The notes beneath the pieces are model-generated. The model was not told where the DNA came from. It saw only the letters and a program-made list of their open reading frames with translations, and made no database searches. From Pezizomycotina sp. ARF18 (Eukaryota; Ascomycota), in NCBI GenBank assembly GCA_002224055.1, contig AZLU01000006.1, forward strand, positions 1-64,000: DNA of 64,000 bases. The letters run 5' to 3'. This document shows, in pieces, positions 6,270-54,805 of this stretch; the first letter of the stretch is position 1; each line of letters begins with the position of its first letter. The position numbers and the translations under genes are program-made.

Positions 6270-9200
6270 TTGGTGGCAGGTAGACGTCCGTAGCCGTCTC
6301 AGAATTGAAATTGATTTGTATCCTTTGATGGAGTGATTCCTAGAGGCCCAGGTATCGTGAGATTCGAGAGTTTGCAGGTCTGTTGAAGGGAGGGCTGGAT
6401 TACAGGCTGGTAATCCGTGACGTTTATTGGCTTGTGATAGCGTTTCCAAAGTAACAAAACTTTCAGCGGTTCTAGCTCTCCACGGGAGGGTTTGCTCTCC
6501 AAAATGCGAACGACAGAAGGGTTTAAACACGATAATGACAAGGGCAATACTGAGTAGTAGTAGGAGAGTAGGTAGTAGTAATAATGAGTAAAGTTGATTG
6601 AAGAAAGTGAAGGGGAGGGTGGTGGTGGTGATGGTGATGGAAGAGGGAGAAGAATAAAAAAAAAAAAAAAAATTGTGGTGGTTAGTTAGTGGTATTTTTT
6701 TTGATGTGTGTAATAATAAAATTTGAAGGTGGGTGGTGGTGTGGTGTGTGGGAAGGGCACTTTCTTTGGGTGCGTTTGGCGTAAAGTGGGTATGTATTAT
6801 TTTGGCAGTGGCATGTCCCGCAAAATTAAAATAAAAAATAAATAAATAAAAAAAAATAAAAATAAAAATAAAATAAAATAATTATTTATAAAATGAAAGA
6901 ATAAGATATAATACGAATCACAGTATCAATTTACCCCCAGGATGTGCTATAGAAAGAAACACTGCAAGCAGATACCCAAGCTAGACCGTAAGGATCTCTA
7001 ATCTGCTCTTAGAGATCGAAACTAACGCTGAAAAGAGGAAACAAAGACGAAAAAAAGTTTGTATCTTAACCTAAGTAACTCCCTGTGTTTTTCTCTCCTC
7101 CGTGTCTCACTAGTGCTAGCAATGCTGTATACTGATTCCGATGCAGAGAGAGAAAGGAATACAAAGTGAGATACTCCACCGAATAGCGAGATCACAGTGC
7201 AGACTCTCGTACATGCACGGTAAAGATACTCTGTTTACTAACTGTCATGTATTGTATGTACCTCCTTCCTGACTTTACTTCACTTCTTAGCTCTCTTGTC
7301 TGTTCTCAACTTGCAGTGTGGGAGAAAAAATAAACCATAATTTACACTGTCAAGTACGAGTTACAGCGCGGGTTTGTAGCAGAAAGACTCTGTAATGTAC
7401 TTTCTCATCACTTATTCCCACAGCAGAAATAAAAAAGCATACTTCCCCTTTGGAGAAATGATTAAGAAATCAAAAAAAAAAAAAAAAAAAAAAAAAGAAG
7501 CTAAGAGAAACGCGTGTGCGAAGGGTAAAAAAAAGGAAGACAACCGCTATTATGACCGCCAACCATGCAAATGATCGGGGAAGGGGAGATCCTTGCTGAT
7601 CGTCTGCTATTGGTGGTCGGCGGTCATAAAAAAACACAAACGATAAGAAACAATTACTATTGTTTATCGATCATTAAGGAAAGGCTGTCCTCCCCTAGTA
7701 CCTACTACCTAACACCTTGCTCGACTGATACTGTAACAAAAGTAAACGCTATTACGATCTCAAAGAGGAGGGTCCTTAAGGCAATATGCATCTCCCGCTA
7801 GGCCTCCTGGAGAAGAGCTCTCTAATTGGCTCTTCCTCCGTCATATTTCCCCACAAAAAGCCACCGTTCGTGGTGGCAATCTTTTTTTCGTTTCTCTTAA
7901 GGATTACTCTAGAGTCTTAGCTCAAGAGAATCTCATTTTATTGTTCCTTTTTGCACTTTTGCATTGACATTGAATATAGCTTCGGGTTCATCGGCAGTAT
8001 CCGTCGTCTACTTGCACATCTTAGGTACATTGAAAAGTTAATAATTTTTTTTTTCTCCTCCGTCCGTCTCCTTTTCGTGCGATTTTCTCCTTCGAGATCT
8101 ATTAAGCGTTGGATATGTATCATCGTACATCAATCTGCACGTCGAAAGCATTTCTCTCTAATCACAATGGCGTTTAAAGTTTTTTTTTTTTTTTTTTTTT
8201 TCTAAGGGAGCGAAGGTATGCATGCGAGTTTTGTATACATATTGCAAGAGCTCGGTTTACCGTAAGCTGTGCCCCGTGCAAGGGTTTGTTTTAACAGACG
8301 AAGATAAATAGCATATACACAACTATCAAAACGGAGAAGGGCCATAAGGAAGCACCTTGTACGGGCTGTTTAAAAAAGAACTGATGTTCGAGGAGTCCAG
8401 TATGTTACGAACCGAGAGGATAATAACAGCCTTACCTTAACGTTAACCACCCACCAAGAAAAAAAAGAAAAAAAAAATAAAAAAAATAGGGCTACATCAC
8501 TATATCTCCCCCAAATGTTCTATAATAAGGCAGAGCAACCTATTAACAATTTCTTATCAGCTAACGCTTCTTGTCCCTTTTTTTTTTTAGTTCTGAGCGC
8601 ATAATACCGCATTCCAGATAAAAGCTGCAACAGAGAGCAAAGGGGGACGAATTCCCGAGTATCCTAAAAACAAAATAATAACGAAAGATAATAAATCAGA
8701 TCATAAGAGTGATACAGCACGCGCACGAAGCAGTAGCTGCAAGAGCTACCGAGATTTGGAAATTTCAGGGAAACACTATATATTTTATTAATAATATTAT
8801 ATATCAATTGCAACAGACATTGAGGTTCCAGACAACACTAAGTAAGATAGGGAAACCATATGATAGACGCCAGAAGGCTCATTACAGGACCACTGCCGTA
8901 TTAGCTAGAGTAATTAGTGATATTTCCGTTGCTCTCGGAAATGTCGGCATGGTTACCTCTGAAGATCTTACACAAAGAAATCTTTGTGTTCGGTGAGAGG
9001 AATCTGACATGTATATGTATCCGGACGTAACGCAACACAAGGGAAAAAAAGTAAAATAAGCACTAGTATCAGGATTGTAAACATATAAGACACCTTTGTG
9101 TAATAAACAAATTAAAAAGATAGCATATTAAAAAATAAGGATCCCTTGCGTTGTTCAGGTGCTATGGAACCCTTAAGAATCAACGGATATTAGTATTCCA

Positions 9201-9865: not shown

Positions 9866-10279
9866 CAATAAGTTCTCATTGAGAAATAAAGCGTTGGGAG
9901 TGAGATGATTTAGAACGGCAGATACGGAGTATAATTGCGAAGAGCAGCGGTAGCTCGGAAGGGTAATTGTAGCCGGTTCAACCGTTTCCCTCAGAATCTT
10001 TCACTGTAAACAACATGACAAGTGGAATTTCGTGTATGGTAACCGAAGGATTTTTCAGTACTCTCATCGATCCATTCAACCTACTCATCTGCTAGCATCC
10101 ACATCAAATGTTTCATTGTAGCTGATTTACCCGATATATTAGCTAAAGAAAGCTCTATTTGTAACAGTACTATTTGTTCATCTTCCCTGATACAGCTTAC
10201 AAATTAAGCACAACTTTTACAAGAAACAATTTGAATGTTTTTGAAACGATTGTAAATTTACTACATTAGCGCTTGGCTT

Positions 10280-13200
10280 GTGACACACAGCATTTGAGGT
10301 TGAGAGCGAATGGGGAATTTAGACATAACAGAGCGTCTATGAAACAAGGAACCCTTAGGATATTTTCACATAAAGCGAAATATATGAAAGACATGCCTCC
10401 TAGTAAGTACATCGTGAAACTATATTTCAATTTGGGAATTATATATATTATTGAACGGCTATATCGTTATATCAAATAGTCAATTGGACAATCGATTTAA
10501 TATACGTTAAGCGCTTGGCTGTGCAAGGAGCTCAAGCCCATTCCATCACCCTGGAGGAGATTATACGATGATCCCTAGCGCGCTTCAAGACGTAAATCAA
10601 GTTGGACAAATTAAAAATCAGTTGAAGAATACATTGCTACTCTATAAGTTGATAGGAAGCGTTCTCTTCACAAGGCGCAAATTTATAATGCGTGTAACTG
10701 CTGTTTGTACTGTATATTTTAAGCGCGAATATTGGCATCGTTGCCCTTCAATACAGCCATAGAATTGGAAAGTAGGCTACTTTTTTATCATAGAGGTCGT
10801 GCGGTTTTTGTTCAATCTTTACTTATCAAAGTAGTGCCGCATGGCAGAATTTCAGTAATATCTGCCGCCGGCGTTCTTACTACGCCACTAGGCGCTCAGT
10901 TTATCGGTATAGGGAGTTCGTCTCATGCCGATAAGTCCTATCTGCAAAATTTGAACAACAAGGCTCCATTCCGTATGGTGGGATCCTTACTATACAGCGC
11001 GAAATGGTCTGGATGAGATGTTAAGTATCCCAAGGCCAGTAGTTGAAGCTCCCTTTGATATGCGGCGCGGTGCGCAGGTTGTGGCTTGAAATGCATGTAG
11101 AGCAATATGGCAAGGGATGCATAATCATCACATATATACTGAATAGCCACTCGGTACCCTATGCCTTTGTGACCGATGCTGCCTTGATCCCCGGCTACAT
11201 TCTCGTACGCGCTAATGTATGAATCCATAATCTAATATGTTGAGCATTATAGCAATCTGGGTATCGGGGGGAGTTCGGCTCTACAGTACTCAAGCTTAGT
11301 ATATGAAGTCCGCTTGATCAACCTAATACCAGTATGCGACGGTTGCTGGAAGTAAGTCCAGAATCGGTGCTACTATTAAAGATATCTTCCCAATAACGTG
11401 AATTATCGTAAACTGCATTCATAACCTCAGAGACAATTGCATGTCTCCGTTAACACCGGTCAAGACCAAGAGATGATTGATTAGTAGCATGCGTTTTCCG
11501 CTAGTAGAGATCGTTACTATGGAAATTATAGATTTATACGTGGTTCAGAAAGGCACGGCGGCTTCGTGGAGTTGCTGGTATGAGAAGTAACTCTTGTGAA
11601 CTTCGTCCTTTTGCTTCATTTTGGAGTGATGCTGTGTGAAATTCTAGGGTCCAGCGAATCCCAAACGGATCGGCGGTCCATGAACAAAACTTAACTTAGT
11701 CATTGTCGCATCTTCATAGGCTCCGCAATCCACTCGGCGAAGCAGGACGGCTCCTTTATAAATTGCAAGGGCATAAGCGTTTTCTTTATCCATTGACCGC
11801 GCATGCGTCAGCTACAGTTTTAACAATCGATATCGTGGCTCCACTCCGGCTTGAACAGCCTGCTAAATCCAGAAACGGTTTTATGGAATTCTCGTGGTTT
11901 CATCGTCTCCAATAAGACGGAAGACATCTGTTAGAGAGGCAATGTTCTAGTATGGATATTACTCGTCCTCGCGATTGTCCTACATCTCTCGTGAACATTC
12001 GAACTATGCCTCTTACGCGGCCTTGATGTGAACTCTGGGGTATGCAGAACGCTCTTAGTCCTGGGTCCGGCTTTTGATTTGCCCTGGATTTGAGATTCTC
12101 AGATTTAGCCAATTATCCTGTCTCTAAGAGATCGTTTAATTTATATTTCCGATGCTTGGCTTCATCTAATGGCCGTCAAAAGATGATGTCCGTCAGATTT
12201 ACTATCGCGGTTTGCTCATGTCCCTCGCTTGGCTCCAGATGGATTTCTATCCTGAGAGAAAACTCTAAAGCTGAAATGCTTTCGTAGCTGCCCGTCATGA
12301 CTTTAGGCGATACATTAGCTTTCGCTAGACGGCACTAATAACACCTCTGCTACTCCAGAAGCCAGGGAGGTATCAGCATTGTACCGATTCGGCCCGTATC
12401 GAAACTTTTCCACCCTTCGCTCGAGGATGTAATCGTAGAAAATGTATCCTCGCAACGTCTGTATCTATGGCAGTCTCTTCAATGTTCTAGATCGCTTTAT
12501 GGAAAGTTTGATCGGTTTCGACGAACTATCAAAAGTTCTTCGCCGGCCTAAATATGAACTTTGAAGTAAGAATATGCTGCGGTTTCATCTTTTTTTGATC
12601 AAGCCTTCCGGCTACGGTATTGACGCGAAGCTTTCTGCTGTTTCGTCTACGATTTTTCTTTGTGATATTACGCATATCCATCTATTGGGAAACCACGAAA
12701 TATATATATTCGTTATAAGTAGACCGTGTACCCTTGCGTGTTCAAGAACATGCATCGCTGGTAAGGGACTGCTATCAATATCACACAGCTCGCGCCCATC
12801 CACCAAAATTATACGACGACTCATAGAAAGCCTTTCTGCCTATGAGTCTCGCTACCATCTGGTTAGGCGCCATCTAATCTACTCTACTCGCATGTAATGC
12901 TAATTGCCTTGTATCTTCTTTGACACATATTTGTTCCCGTTTATATTGCGAAAGCCTCTACAACTCTACAAAACATATGCTGACTCTAGTTCGCGCTCGC
13001 TAACGTTCTATTAAAGTGCCGTGCTCGATTTAGTCAGTCAATCATTAAATCAGAAATATATTGACGGTGCTGGTAAGGTACTCCTGCGTATGACAGCTGC
13101 GTCGACGGTGTATATACGCTCTCTATCTAACCTTCTACGCTACGTACTGAGTAGAGCGGCGTATAACAAGGTCATATCCACCACGCCATTGGTAGAGCAC

Positions 13201-15600
13201 TCCGAGCTCTATATGTGACTGAAGCATTTTCTGTCTCGTTGTTCAGGATAGTAAGCCTAGCGGACAGGTAATCCTCCAACAGCAATCGTTGGGCTCTATG
13301 CTTTGTGTCTGTTAAGCTCGCGTTTGTTCTGTACGTATAGAGAGTGTGCGGCTGATTGGATGAAACCTTGATTTATAGATAGTGTCTGATAGTCTCTGGT
13401 TTAAATACCGTATTTAAAGTATGATAAAGTCATACGCTCTGTATTCACAAGAACTTGTCCCAAATAGCTAACTCGAATGGGTTTCGAGATTGTTACGCAA
13501 CGTAGAGCTATCCGGAGGCGATGTTTTTTCGCTCGTCCGGCTACCTGCGTGAATTCGGGGGGCAATTATGTCTACTTGTTCATCCCTCGTGTAGTTCAAA
13601 GCTTCCAAATATCGCATTTCATTGTACTCTTGATATTCAGTTAATCCTAGAAGGTCGCTAGTGGGTTTGCACTATAGCCAGAAGCTGCTTTTCTTAATAA
13701 AGCTGCAAAGTCTCTCGGTAAATATTTCTTCCTCAACTTGATCTAGGTAAGGACATTATCGCTCAGGTGGAAAGCGCAGAGTAATTATGGGTCACTCTGA
13801 GCTATCCCCGCCTATACCTAGTTTCATATCATCTCACCGACACGAAATTTCGATGCGAACTTTGAAGTTTTGGAAAAGGATAACCTTTCTATATTGCGTC
13901 CTTCCCTGACGTCACATTCGTGAGTATGATTTCTAGTTGGAGCGGCCTCCTTTACGAAGTGAAGTCGTCGACGATTCGTTTTACCTAATCGATTCTAGCG
14001 ATTTGCAGAAGAGAATGGAGAATGGTGATTATCGCGCGGTAGTTCTCGCTTCTACGTTCAAATGTCTCTATCGCAGTGCTTTTTGCCGTCAGCATTTTGG
14101 GGTTTACGGGTTGAATATGCTGTTCGGGGACTTTGAGCAGTTCCTTACTTCGAAAATAATCCCCTATGAAAGTGTATAATTTGTTCGCCCATGCCTACAC
14201 TTTATCAGAAACTCGCCCGACGTCCTTGCGCTGTAATGTATGGACGCCGGCTTACTTCAACTCTGCGTGCTTGTGGTACTTCGATTTCGGAATTACCGTC
14301 CTCGACTTTAGTAAATTCAAGATATGTCGATGGCGCAGCAATGCTTTTCAAATATTGAATATCACTTGATCATTCACTACCTGGGTACTGTATAATAGTG
14401 TACTGCGCATGCGATGCGAGCATACCCATATCGTTTACGGTCGTATCATAAAACGGCAACCTGCTACAGAGACATAGACGCGGTATTCGGATGCGAGGCT
14501 TGGATGATCCCTCTTACAATTCAAGAGGGATTCCGTCATATCAATTAGCCCTGTTGTGTTAGAAGCGTTAAATGTGCAATGCGAAATCGACGTATGCTTA
14601 CGAGCGCTTACAGCTCGTACTAATCCGTACTTTGGCATTTATCGTTATAGCTTCCACGTTGGGTATACATTATGGTGAGAGGTATGAAAGATGTTTTGAC
14701 CCGTTGATAAAAAGAAATCCCCTGTCGCTACTCCGCAGCGGTCTGAAGAAAAAGCACCGTTTAAAAGGGCTGTCATTATCATTCCACTCATGCGAGATGA
14801 CAAGTTTATCCGATCGCCGGCGAAGAAGGTTATCTATTCCACGTCTCTACCTGGAGATGAGGTGATGATTATCGTGCGGCTCTTGTTTTCGGCTCTTGTT
14901 TTCCAAGTAGAGCGTCCCTATGGATTGCAGTCAGTGGCGTGAGATTTTCGTAAACAAACCCTGAATATCTGGCCAGCTGAAGTTCTTCATTACTTCGAAG
15001 TTTAATAGCTTCGACGAAAGTCTACGACAAAGTACAAGAATTTGAGACTGCACTTATCATTGCCTGGTGGTGCATACGATGACTTTTACCGGAATATTCA
15101 AATTGCTAGCCACCAAAATGCCCAGAGAATACTATATGTCTATAGCGACTTTGCTCTTCGACTTGCGAATCTCAACTTTCTAGTTGCTTCTGGCTATCTC
15201 GGCTTTGGAACATAGACTAAATATCGCGTATTTCTCTCAGTGATTGAATACACTTTGCGCTGCATATGCGGTTGGGGCAATACCCACGTTGTTTGTGATC
15301 TTATCGTACGTAGCGAATTTATTTCTAGGGCGTCGGTCCGGCATATGGTGGGCTTAGGTAAACTACTTGTATCGGCTCAAAGACCTCTGAACTGGCATTG
15401 CCTGTGATGTTGGATCCAAAGATATTACTTTTATCCATCGACTCTAGCGCCGTTCGTTTATGCCCAAATGTTGATATTTAAGAGTTCGAGCATAGCGAAT
15501 TAACGTATGTTGTTGGAGTAATCGGCCATACTAATCTATATACTGGTATTTCTCATGATTAAGAGATATTTGTCTGATACCTATGAAAGTTGTTTCCATC
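10280..15600. repeat. Ancient, strongly diverged tandem array, period about 860-880 bp
   Basis: I recognise no gene here, but hand comparison finds anchors recurring at a regular spacing. Anchor 1 (CTG-TA-C/T-TAT type) starts at 10710, 12459, 13329, 14195 and 15048. Anchor 2 (GCAT-rich, then GGCAATACCC-like, then TATCGTA-like) has its core at 10924, 11803, 12673, 13550, 14408 and 15263. The two anchors stay 213-221 bases apart in every unit where both are found. The best pair, 14403-14449 against 15260-15307, matches at 33 of 47 positions with one gap, and 11 of the 14 mismatches are transitions. Collinear matches between the fourth and fifth units include TGATTATCG-GCGG (14026/14866), TGAATAT (14112/14962) and TTACTTCGAA (14145/14990). 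Reading frames are broken throughout. The edges are uncertain: the array may begin before 10.3 kb and fades near the A/T run at 15602. The outer units rest on weak matches. Confidence 0.6.
14879..14907. repeat. Short tandem duplication (CGGCTCTTGTTTT, two copies)
   Basis: A 14-base unit reading CGGCTCTTGTTTT plus one base is repeated twice in direct head-to-tail order. It lies within the diverged tandem array, just after the TGATTATCG anchor. The copies are nearly identical, so this duplication is much younger than the array around it. Confidence 0.7.
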
Positions 15601-17215: not shown

Positions 17216-22125
<4,910 letters not shown>

Positions 22126-51190: not shown

Positions 51191-54100
51191 ATGTCAAGCG
51201 ATCAACCAAGAGGCGGTAGAGGACGCGGCCGTGGGAATCGAGGAGGCCGTGGAGGCGAGAGAGGTGGGCGTGGGCGTGGGCGTGGAGGCGGAGACGGCGG
51301 CGGTAGCGGAGGTCCGGCAACCCCCGCCATTGGCGATCGAGGAGGACGAGGAGGTTTTCGAGGTGATCGTAGAGGCGGTGGCGGGGGTGGAGGCAGGGGA
51401 AGAGGAGGAGGATTTGGAGATGACGGCAATCGTCCGAGGAGGGGATCGTTCGATTCTTCTGCGGGTAGGGGCAGCCGCGGCGGCGGAGGCGGCGGCGGCT
51501 CGGGCGACCGCGGCGGCTTCAGGGGCCGCGGTGGTAGAGGGGTATGAGGGGGCCGGAGCCTGTCGAAATCTTCAGGTATAGTCTTCTCATACTATCATGG
51601 AATTGAGGAAAGATGAAGCTAGGCAATTAAAGACATCAAGCTAACCGGACAATTAACCTATTTACAAGCCCCAATTCGCCCATCCGGCCAGACCAGACCG
51701 TGACACAGAAGGAAGACGAAGCGGCGATGGCAATGAAGCTACAGAGCCTTACGCTATCCACAGAACCGCGGCATGTCCAAGAGAAAGCTCAGTCCCCCGA
51801 TCGGCCGGGCTTCGGCACAAAGGGCAAACGGGTCCTACTGTGGAGCAATTACTTCGTCATGACCTCACGCTCCCCCGAGGAGCTGCCGATATACCGATAC
51901 AGCATGCAGATGACGCAAGTAAACCCGAAACCTCGCGGGGACGATAATAAAGTGAGCAATAAGGATCGTAAGCGACTGGTTGAGATCCTTCTGGACGATC
52001 ACCTGTCGGATTTCCGAAGGGGATAGCAACGGATTTCAAGCAGCAGATCATCAGTACTCACGAGATCCCGAATAATACGTATGACATCAAGCTTAGGGAT
52101 CAAGGGGCAGACGAACCAGGCGAGAAAGCCAAGGAATTTCATGTTGGGTTCAGCAAGAAACGCCCGTTTACGCTTTCCGAGTTCCTACTTTACGTGGACT
52201 CCTTGTCTACTGGAAAGGAAAGGCTCGATTTTAAAGAGGAGATTATAGGCGCGCTGGACATCATCATGGGCCACCATCCGCAGGCGAACCCGAACAACAT
52301 CTCCTTCCGCGCCGCGGCGGGCACCAGGCACTTCCAGCACACCGGCGCGCTCTGCGAAAGTACTGACCTAGGCGGTAACCTCCTCGGCCTCCGCGGTTTC
52401 TACCTCAGCGTCCGCGCAGCGACGTCCCGCCTCCTCGTCAACGTGCAAGTCAGGTACGCCGCCTTTTTCAAGGTGGTAACCTCGCGGACATGATGAGGGC
52501 GTGGAAAAAGGATAGAAATTTGGAGAAACGGGTAAAGGACATACAGCAGGTTAAGCTGCTACACATTACTAAGGTAAATGCTAGAACGGGCCAGGAGGTC
52601 GTGAGGATGAAAGGTATCTGGGGGTTCGCACACCCCGGAGATGGGAGAAAGCAGGAGCATCCGCCGAGGGTGCAGGGCTACCGCCCGGTCCGAATCAGGT
52701 GCAATTTTACCGCCGTTTTGACCAAAGTGCGACGCCGCAGCAGCCGGCAGGTGCTGCTGGGCCGAGCGGCGGTAGAGGAAGAGGCAAAGGGAAGAAGGCG
52801 AAACAGGGTCCCGCGAGACCCACCGATGGGGAATACGTCACGGTTTTTGATCATTTTAAAGATAGTAACAAATTCATTCCGCACCCCGAACTTGCACCGT
52901 CAGGTGATTATTGATCAATTCTAAACCTCTTGCAGGATGGAACATATCCAACATGGATACGAGTTTACCGGTTATCAACGTGGGCAGTAAAACAAACCCA
53001 AGCTACGTCCCCGCGGAGGTTTGCTTTGTGCTTCCTGATAGGGGCGCGAAACTCGGTCTTAATCCTAGCCAGATGGGTTATATGGCGCAATTTGCCATTC
53101 GGAAGCCTATCCTCAATGCTCAATCAATCATGACTACAGGATTGACCTTGCTGGGCCTATCAGGTCCTAATGAAACGTTGGTAAGTATACGTTTCACTCA
53201 ATCTGGTTTGATCTCCATGCGACTTCCGATCCCTAATCTACTTGTTTAGGATTCTTTTCAACTCACCGTTGACCCAAACATGGTTATGGTTGATGGTCGA
53301 GTTCTCGACAAGCCGGCTGTGACGTATGCCAACAACAGGACACCGGCTACCGTTTCTTCCGGCAGCTGGAACATCAAGTCCATGAAGTTCATCAAGGCGA
53401 AACATTTAACGAATTGGTCGTACCTTCGCATTTCACAATATCCAGAGGGGGATTATACTCCATGGCCGGAAATGCAGAGTTTCGAGGATGCTTTAAAGAC
53501 CTTCAGCAAGGTCCTCCGTAATCACGGGCTGAGAGTGGACGATCTGAGGCCCGGCAAGATGCTTTGGAACGTTGGGGACTTCAAAACTGCTTCGATTTTT
53601 ATTGAAAAAGCTATCGAAAATATCGCCGGGGATCAGAACCCCCCGAGCTTCCTGCTCGTCATCTTGCCCGAATCTGAACACGGAGAACCGGGCAGGAGGA
53701 AGAAGACCTCCAACGCCGATTTCTGCAAGAAAGTCTACAACCTCGTCAAATGTTTACTCGACATACGCTACGGAATAACCTGCGTATGCGTGCTCTCCGA
53801 CAAGTTTTCTGTCACGGGGGGTAGGCTGGAGGGTTACGTCGCGAACGTCGCCCTGAAGGTCAACTTGAAGCTCGGCGGCCACAACCACCGCGTCGGCGAC
53901 GACCAGCTCGGCATCATCTCCGAAGGGAAGACGATGGTCGTCGGCGTCGACGTTACGCACCCGCAGCCCGGTGCTGCACCTAATGCGCCGAGCGTTGCTG
54001 CGGTGGTGGCATCGGTTGATAAGGACCTCGCGCAGTGGCCCGCGGACTTATCCATCCAGCCGCGTTCGACAACCGCTATGTCCGTAGAAATGGTAGCGGA

Positions 54101-54805
54101 TTTGACGGGTATGTTCGCCACCAGGCTGCGCCTCTGGCAAAAGCACAACAGCGCCCGGTTGCCCGAGAATATAATAGTCTACAGGGATGGAGTATCAGAG
54201 AGCGAGTATCCCCTCGTCCTCAAGAAAGAACTACCGCAACTCCACGACGCGTGCGCTAAAATATATTCCGCCGCGGATACTTCCCGCGGCATACCGCATA
54301 TTTCCATCATCATAGTAACGAAGCGGCATAATACCCGCTTCTACCCTACCGAAACCGAGGATGCCGATTCATCGAGTAATCCGCACAACGGCACCGTCGT
54401 CGACCGCGGCGTCACGCTGGCGACCAACTGGGATTTCTTCATGCAGGCGCACACGGCGCTAAAGGGAACCGCAAAGCCGGCGCATTACTTCGTCTTATAC
54501 GATGAGATATTCAGGTACCGTCCCATTCCTGAGAAGTTTGAAAATACGGCGGACGTGGTGGAGGATATGACGCACTGCATGTGTTACCTCTTCGGGCGCG
54601 CGAATAAGGCTGTCAGTATTTGTCCGCCGGCGTATTACGCTGATATAGCGTGCACGAGGGCGCGGTGTTATTTGAATCAGTACTTTGACCGAAGGCAGCA
54701 GAGGAGGGGAGTATTTCGGGGAGTAGTGGTGCCGCTGAGGAAGAAGCCCATGAGGGATTGGTGAGGGTGCATGAGAAGTTGAGGGATTCGATGTTCTACA
54801 TCTAA
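51191..54805 (+). CDS. Argonaute (QDE-2-like), slicer motifs present
   Basis: This is the small-RNA-guided effector of RNA silencing. The ATG at 51191 opens MSSDQPRGGRGRGRGNRGGR, an RGG-rich stretch of about 115 residues. The N and linker domains follow (GFGTKGKRVLLWSNYF; KPRGDDNKVSNKDRKRLVEI; FKQQIISTHEIPNNTYDIKL; FHVGFSKKRPFTLSEFLLYV), then PAZ (EYVTVFDHFKDS and LPVINVGSKTNPSYVPAEVC) and MID (PPSFLLVILPE). PIWI has VVGVDVTHPQPG (Asp), AMSVEMVADL (Glu finger), ENIIVYRDGVSESEY (Asp) and PAHYFVLYDEI (His), so the slicer DEDH set is complete. Introns: 51576-51668 and 53181-53249, plus an apparent 32-base one at 52904-52935. The usual C terminus VHEKLRDSMFYI lies in another frame after a one-base change near 54,720 and ends at 54803-54805. 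Four or five more one-base changes occur upstream. About 1,140 residues; the RGG region explains the excess over QDE-2. Confidence 0.95.

Follow-up and report, generated by a model that had tools for sequence, protein, structure and literature searches.

RIP is regarded as ancient in Pezizomycotina in the available part of PMC7882544. For Neurospora, PMC2621366 in its accessible text places the RIP threshold near 80% identity and 400 bp, and PMC4858203 in its available part describes triggering by close repeats as short as 155-220 bp and also by interspersed homology with an identity as low as 36%. RIP-mutated repeats share with the tandem pair described here a length of the duplicated DNA above 400 bp and a genome in which RIP-type change occurs. 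They differ from it in that the pair has a G + C content of 0.433 and carries no CpA-biased C-to-T change. Gene duplications lacking RIP marks are, like the pair, long, old and less than 80% identical, but they are genes, whereas the fossil duplications on contig C6 are tandem segments without open frames or detected selection. Satellite and minisatellite arrays consist of head-to-tail, gene-free units, as is the case here; one such place on C6 (82-87.3 kb) has many units, whereas the island at 10280-15600 has two units only.

The assembly comprises 46.4 Mb in 408 contigs, of which C6 has a length of 511 kb. The window, i.e., the whole stretch of DNA that was analyzed, covers the first 64 kb of C6, and the features are collected in Table 1. 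The island at 10280-15600 has a G + C content of 0.433 with few A/T runs. Its longest stop-to-stop frame has 110 aa, and 79-112 stops are present per frame compared with 102 expected from the composition. None of the 19 different frames submitted to Pfam (20 submissions) passed the cut-off, the sole weak match having an E-value of 0.028 and 14.7 bits (cut-off 25). No tRNA was found in the island in a search using the bacterial code, and no Rfam match in it reached the gathering score (three sub-threshold matches, E 1.5-2.9). The original prediction of a gene-free island is borne out to the extent that no recognizable gene is present. A second island of similar texture lies at the contig start. 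Its best local match to the island at 10280-15600 has an E-value of 0.016, on the opposite strand and without a shuffle control, so that homology is not demonstrated, and no further match was seen at the sensitivity of the search used. Elsewhere in the window, an Argonaute PIWI-domain exon is located at 53280-54764, with Neurospora QDE-2 as the best solved-structure match, and an ABC transporter transmembrane region at 18647-19240 on the minus strand barely exceeds the Pfam cut-off (30.1 vs. 28 bits). The QDE-2 match and the strong RIP-type bias of some contig ends suggest that the DNA comes from a filamentous ascomycete.

Table 1. Features of the two gene-free islands (window positions in bases) and further duplicated places on contig C6 (kb).
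Feature	Position	Strand	Unit size or lag	Basis or remark
Copy 1 of ancient tandem duplication	13920-14696	+	unit ~850 bp	local alignment to 14772-15595
Unaligned spacer between copies, end of unit 1	14697-14771	.		outside the alignment
Copy 2 of ancient tandem duplication	14772-15595	+		local alignment to copy 1; tile ranking on C6
Remainder of gene-free island, without detectable repeat unit	10280-13919	.		unit pairs, tiles, profile
Second gene-free island, similar texture, contig start	1-2720	.		few A/T runs, without long frame
Old duplication	C6 75.7-78.4 kb		lag ~2.2 kb	longest frame 167 codons
Many-unit ancient tandem array	C6 82-87.3 kb (L005/L006)		units roughly 500 bp	longest frame 148 aa
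Old duplication	C6 93.5-95.3 kb		lag ~870	score 607 vs. 132 +/- 20
Old duplication	C6 153.1-154.5 kb		lag ~885	
Old duplications	C6 200.7-204.5 kb		lags ~500-780, one at 1.1 kb	

At 13.9-15.6 kb the island contains an ancient tandem duplication of two copies with a step of ~850 bp. The copies, whose starts are 852 bp apart, align end to end with a score of 335, compared with 136.6 +/- 21.8 and a maximum of 226 for 200 shuffles in a gap-tolerant local alignment. In total, 461 of the 693 aligned columns are identical, a figure that exaggerates the relatedness of the pair since shuffled pairs are also 60-67% identical in their aligned columns. When the tiles of C6 were ranked against copy 1, leaving out plus-strand tiles starting at 13000-14700, the tile at 14851 in copy 2 scored 315 and the next best among the 948 tile-strands 197. 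Four of the six best pieces of a sensitive local self-alignment were collinear, linking 14.0-14.7 kb with 14.9-15.6 kb at lags of 862, 917, 840 and 901. Single pieces are marginal (28.1 bits for the best one, compared with shuffled maxima of 27.2 at the 95% point and 33.3 at the highest in 60 shuffles), and it is the collinearity of the pieces, not any single piece, that stands out. The proposal that the last two units of the island are related through collinear blocks is confirmed by this alignment of 13920-14696 with 14772-15595, with local lags of 840-917.

Under five scoring schemes the z-scores of the pair were 9.5, 5.6, 3.5, 3.3 and 0.8 (300 shuffles each). This variation shows that the signal is a long, indel-rich collinearity and not a strong local identity; the value of 0.8 under one of the schemes speaks against the pair. 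The 232 mismatches are composed of 89 transitions and 143 transversions, and the 51 gaps have sizes of 1-25 bases, with multiples of 3 in eight of them. The identity along the pair is fairly even, with 0.48-0.78 per 50-column window and a variance of 1.3 times the binomial one. As had been anticipated, standard repeat finding nearly misses this repeat: only a 17-base block of the pair (14023/14863) was reported by the repeat finder, and Tandem Repeats Finder as run was blind to the pair because the longest period was 500. Self-palindromes at 13351-13468 and 14560-14656 were also considered and dropped, the top score being reached by 8 and the second by 2 of 60 shuffled islands.

RIP-type change is evident elsewhere in the genome. 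The AT-rich contig ends L019 1-8000, L015 1-3700 and L014 1-900 have lost CpA almost completely and are saturated with RIP-type change; CpA and TpG amount to 0.05 and 0.06 of expectation in the first, 0.09 and 0.24 in the second, and 0.04 and 0.24 in the third. The pair at 13.9-15.6 kb shows no RIP bias, with a CpA<->TpA dominance of 0.27, TpA/ApT of 0.87, (CpA+TpG)/(ApC+GpT) of 1.06 and G + C of 0.433, and does not resemble a RIP target in these values. Six further pairs, which come from four places, have a dominance of 0.29-0.45. The pair at 75.7-78.4 kb is the exception, with a dominance of 0.92 on 25 sites and a G + C content of 0.34-0.41, and the index of 0.90 for that at 153.1-154.5 kb is slightly RIP-like, yet its dominance is 0.34. 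A BLAST search of 314 kb against itself revealed two pairs of more than 200 bp at 70% identity or higher, each of them dispersed between contigs and strongly RIPed. All un-RIPed direct pairs above 80% in this search have a length of 107-168 bp, and it revealed no long tandem pair of young age, whether RIPed or un-RIPed. The long un-RIPed tandem pairs are visible only to more sensitive alignment and are 62-75% identical in aligned columns. With regard to the enzymes, the genome has five C5 DNA methyltransferase matches, and three of them lie at C51:202475-203852, marking a candidate RIP or DNA-methylation enzyme. The first 10 kb (L021) of contig C50 (231 kb) have a G + C content of ~25% and no RIP bias. 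All five COX1 matches, two of them above the cut-off, are located on this contig and spread over 91.8-206.5 kb; C50 very likely represents a mitochondrial genome that is large and rich in introns.

For the detection of further local duplications, 214 kb of C6 were scanned with 600-base tiles against the next 2.6 kb, and a duplication was called at more than 100 points over shuffles. Direct duplications were called in 33 of 709 tiles and inverted ones in 2 of 709 (the tiles at 69301 and 86101), compared with 0 of 709 in the block-shuffled contig. Five of the direct tiles were excluded, namely 69301 and 71101 (56% G + C, possibly coding), 144301 (unexamined), and 156301 and 211201 (short young repeats). 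The remaining 28 tiles correspond to six places, including the pair at 13.9-15.6 kb, and at least five other places on C6 carry old duplications with 62-75% identity in aligned columns. Among these, the place at 82-87.3 kb is a better example of the array that had been described for the island; 12 matches below E 1e-3 were obtained there with an iterated profile that includes them. Matches in low-G + C sequence (L014, L015, L019, L021 and C6 at 124 kb) were not counted as duplications, since such matches can arise from composition alone; the sequence at 124 kb matches L015 with 80.6% over 499 bp. Homology of the island with the place of similar period at 93.5-95.3 kb is not claimed: a z-score of 4.2 was reached in one of eight comparisons, but 5 of 1000 shuffles did as well, and a four-way alignment was unconvincing. 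Furthermore, a U5 spliceosomal RNA was found on L006 at 6898-7013 on the minus strand (47.3 bits vs. a gathering score of 40).

The pair is probably explained by a segment of ~850 bp that was duplicated in tandem long ago, with both copies drifting afterwards, and that arose before effective RIP or escaped it. Replication slippage or unequal exchange may have produced the duplication. The two copies would then have diverged, presumably neutrally and without a function, until a third or more of the aligned sites differed and about 50 small indels had accumulated, and the gene-poor islands of C6 would contain several fossils of this kind, the pair among them. Because some other repeats are RIP-saturated and the pair is free of RIP change, the duplication is most likely older than effective RIP in the lineage or an escapee from it, and by now the copies would be too diverged to serve as a good target. 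With RIP regarded as ancient in the group (PMC7882544) and with the triggers known from Neurospora (PMC4858203), as far as the available parts of the two reports go, un-RIPed duplications of 850 bp are not fully explained.

Gene families commonly originate by tandem duplication, and the two units might instead be decayed tandem gene copies, i.e., pseudogenes. Copy 1 has an open frame of 80 codons at 13937-14176, which is in favor of a coding past. We consider this origin unlikely, since all frames are closed today (the longest one over both copies extends over 97 of 580 codons), none of the 19 frames exceeded the Pfam cut-off, and the single frame searched in the genome matched itself alone. 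Neither an open frame nor a protein family thus marks the pair as a tandem gene duplication. The spacing of mismatches in the pair gave no signal at lags 1-9, lag 3 included, which, like the small number of gaps in multiples of 3, says less against pseudogenes than it might seem. Such tests have little power to reveal a former gene, a point in favor of pseudogenes: three control tandem pairs inside long open frames yielded lag-3 z-scores of 2.26, -1.37 and 1.98, with gaps in multiples of 3 in 3 of 16, 3 of 12 and 1 of 4 cases, so that the coding pattern appears weakly or not at all in mismatch spacing and indels even there. The three-base periodicity is 1.4-1.6 in the copies, 8-11 in the Argonaute exon and 0.7-6.3 in windows of the ABC transporter region, so that this measure overlaps as well. 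A structured RNA is not supported either: unit 1 folds no better than shuffles on either strand (z +0.30 and -0.99, 20 shuffles each), and no Rfam match was found at the gathering score.

Gene-poor islands of like texture are common on the contig, and the units could also be what is left of a family of transposable elements inserted or amplified in tandem. A DNA search of the whole genome with the unit returned no second match at its sensitivity, which speaks against such a family; the same search also missed the known tandem partner and is therefore uninformative on relatives of such age, which leaves room for old dispersed members. Six profiles, one per duplicated place and that of the pair included, were run over 314 kb of the 46.4 Mb; at E<1e-3 none of them detected members beyond the place from which it was built, and weak matches elsewhere had E-values of 0.2 and 0.6. 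The limits of these profiles are illustrated by that from 203 kb, which missed its own neighbors at 200.7-202.9 kb at E<1e-3. Judged by these profiles, the six duplicated places do not appear to share a common family. Together with the absence of RIP bias in the pair, which also argues against it, this makes a transposon origin quite improbable.

According to the original prediction, the whole island is a six-unit array with a period of 860-880 bp. This was retained for the last two units and abandoned for the other four. Six tiles at the proposed spacing were compared with shuffles in 15 unit pairs, of which only the last exceeded them (z 7.2), the next highest z-score being 1.9 and all 14 others remaining within the shuffles. 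The suggested autocorrelation was positive in part: k-mers showed a mild excess at lags 840-889, matched by 1, 6 and 31 of 200 shuffles at k=7, 8 and 10, and a weaker one at lags 1700-1769, matched by 14 and 18 of 200 at k=7 and 8 (at k=10 none was observed, 200 of 200), but no lag bin rose above the 95% point of the shuffled maxima at any of the three k-mer lengths. The recurring anchor blocks fared no better when the proposed positions were compared with the last copy. For block 2, shuffled islands did as well in 300 of 300 cases at both 12 and 20 bases, and block 1 was equalled in 49 of 300 (12 bases) and 299 of 300 (20 bases); this control is strict, as the phase was free by +/-25 bases in the shuffles and the real positions were fixed.

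In the remainder of the island (Table 1), 13 tiles of 600 bases with starts at 9901-13501 scored below the shuffled maxima except the one at 12301 (162 vs. 154, eight shuffles each), and no periodicity above chance was detected. When 264 kb were searched with a profile of the pair, the island yielded no third copy at E<=10, and two sub-threshold matches (E 6.4 and 9.3) were located elsewhere; a search of 314 kb likewise gave no such copy at E<=1. A satellite or gene array, which would have three or more related head-to-tail units, is not supported at 10280-15600, where two units are present and only the last pair is related above chance. That the island was once a six-unit array in which all but the last two units have become unrecognizable is very improbable despite the many-unit array at 82-87.3 kb, by which such arrays are known to occur in this genome, and the mild k-mer excess at lags 840-889, to which the last pair contributes, given the single unit pair above shuffles, the missing third copy and the anchors of units 1-4 within the strict control.

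The duplication of an ~850-bp segment before or out of reach of RIP thus remains the preferred explanation, and the pair at 13.9-15.6 kb in itself reflects ordinary genome decay. The wider pattern also shows how common old local duplications can be in gene-poor DNA, even though standard repeat finding overlooks them. Tentatively, and at odds that we put well below even, the gene-poor islands as a whole may preserve, like a fossil record, tandem duplications that predate RIP or lay beyond its reach; the fossils fit the pre-RIP idea, but the sample is small. In the available parts of the literature on RIP thresholds, lineages and duplication pattern, no report was found in which gene-free tandem fossils are used in this way, which does not prove that there is none. 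If long un-RIPed tandem duplications of high identity are missing from the whole genome as well, the upper limit of identity among those present would calibrate when RIP became effective in the lineage. Gene-free tandem duplications may then serve as a clock for the duration of RIP, without the complication that selection brings to the gene-based argument.
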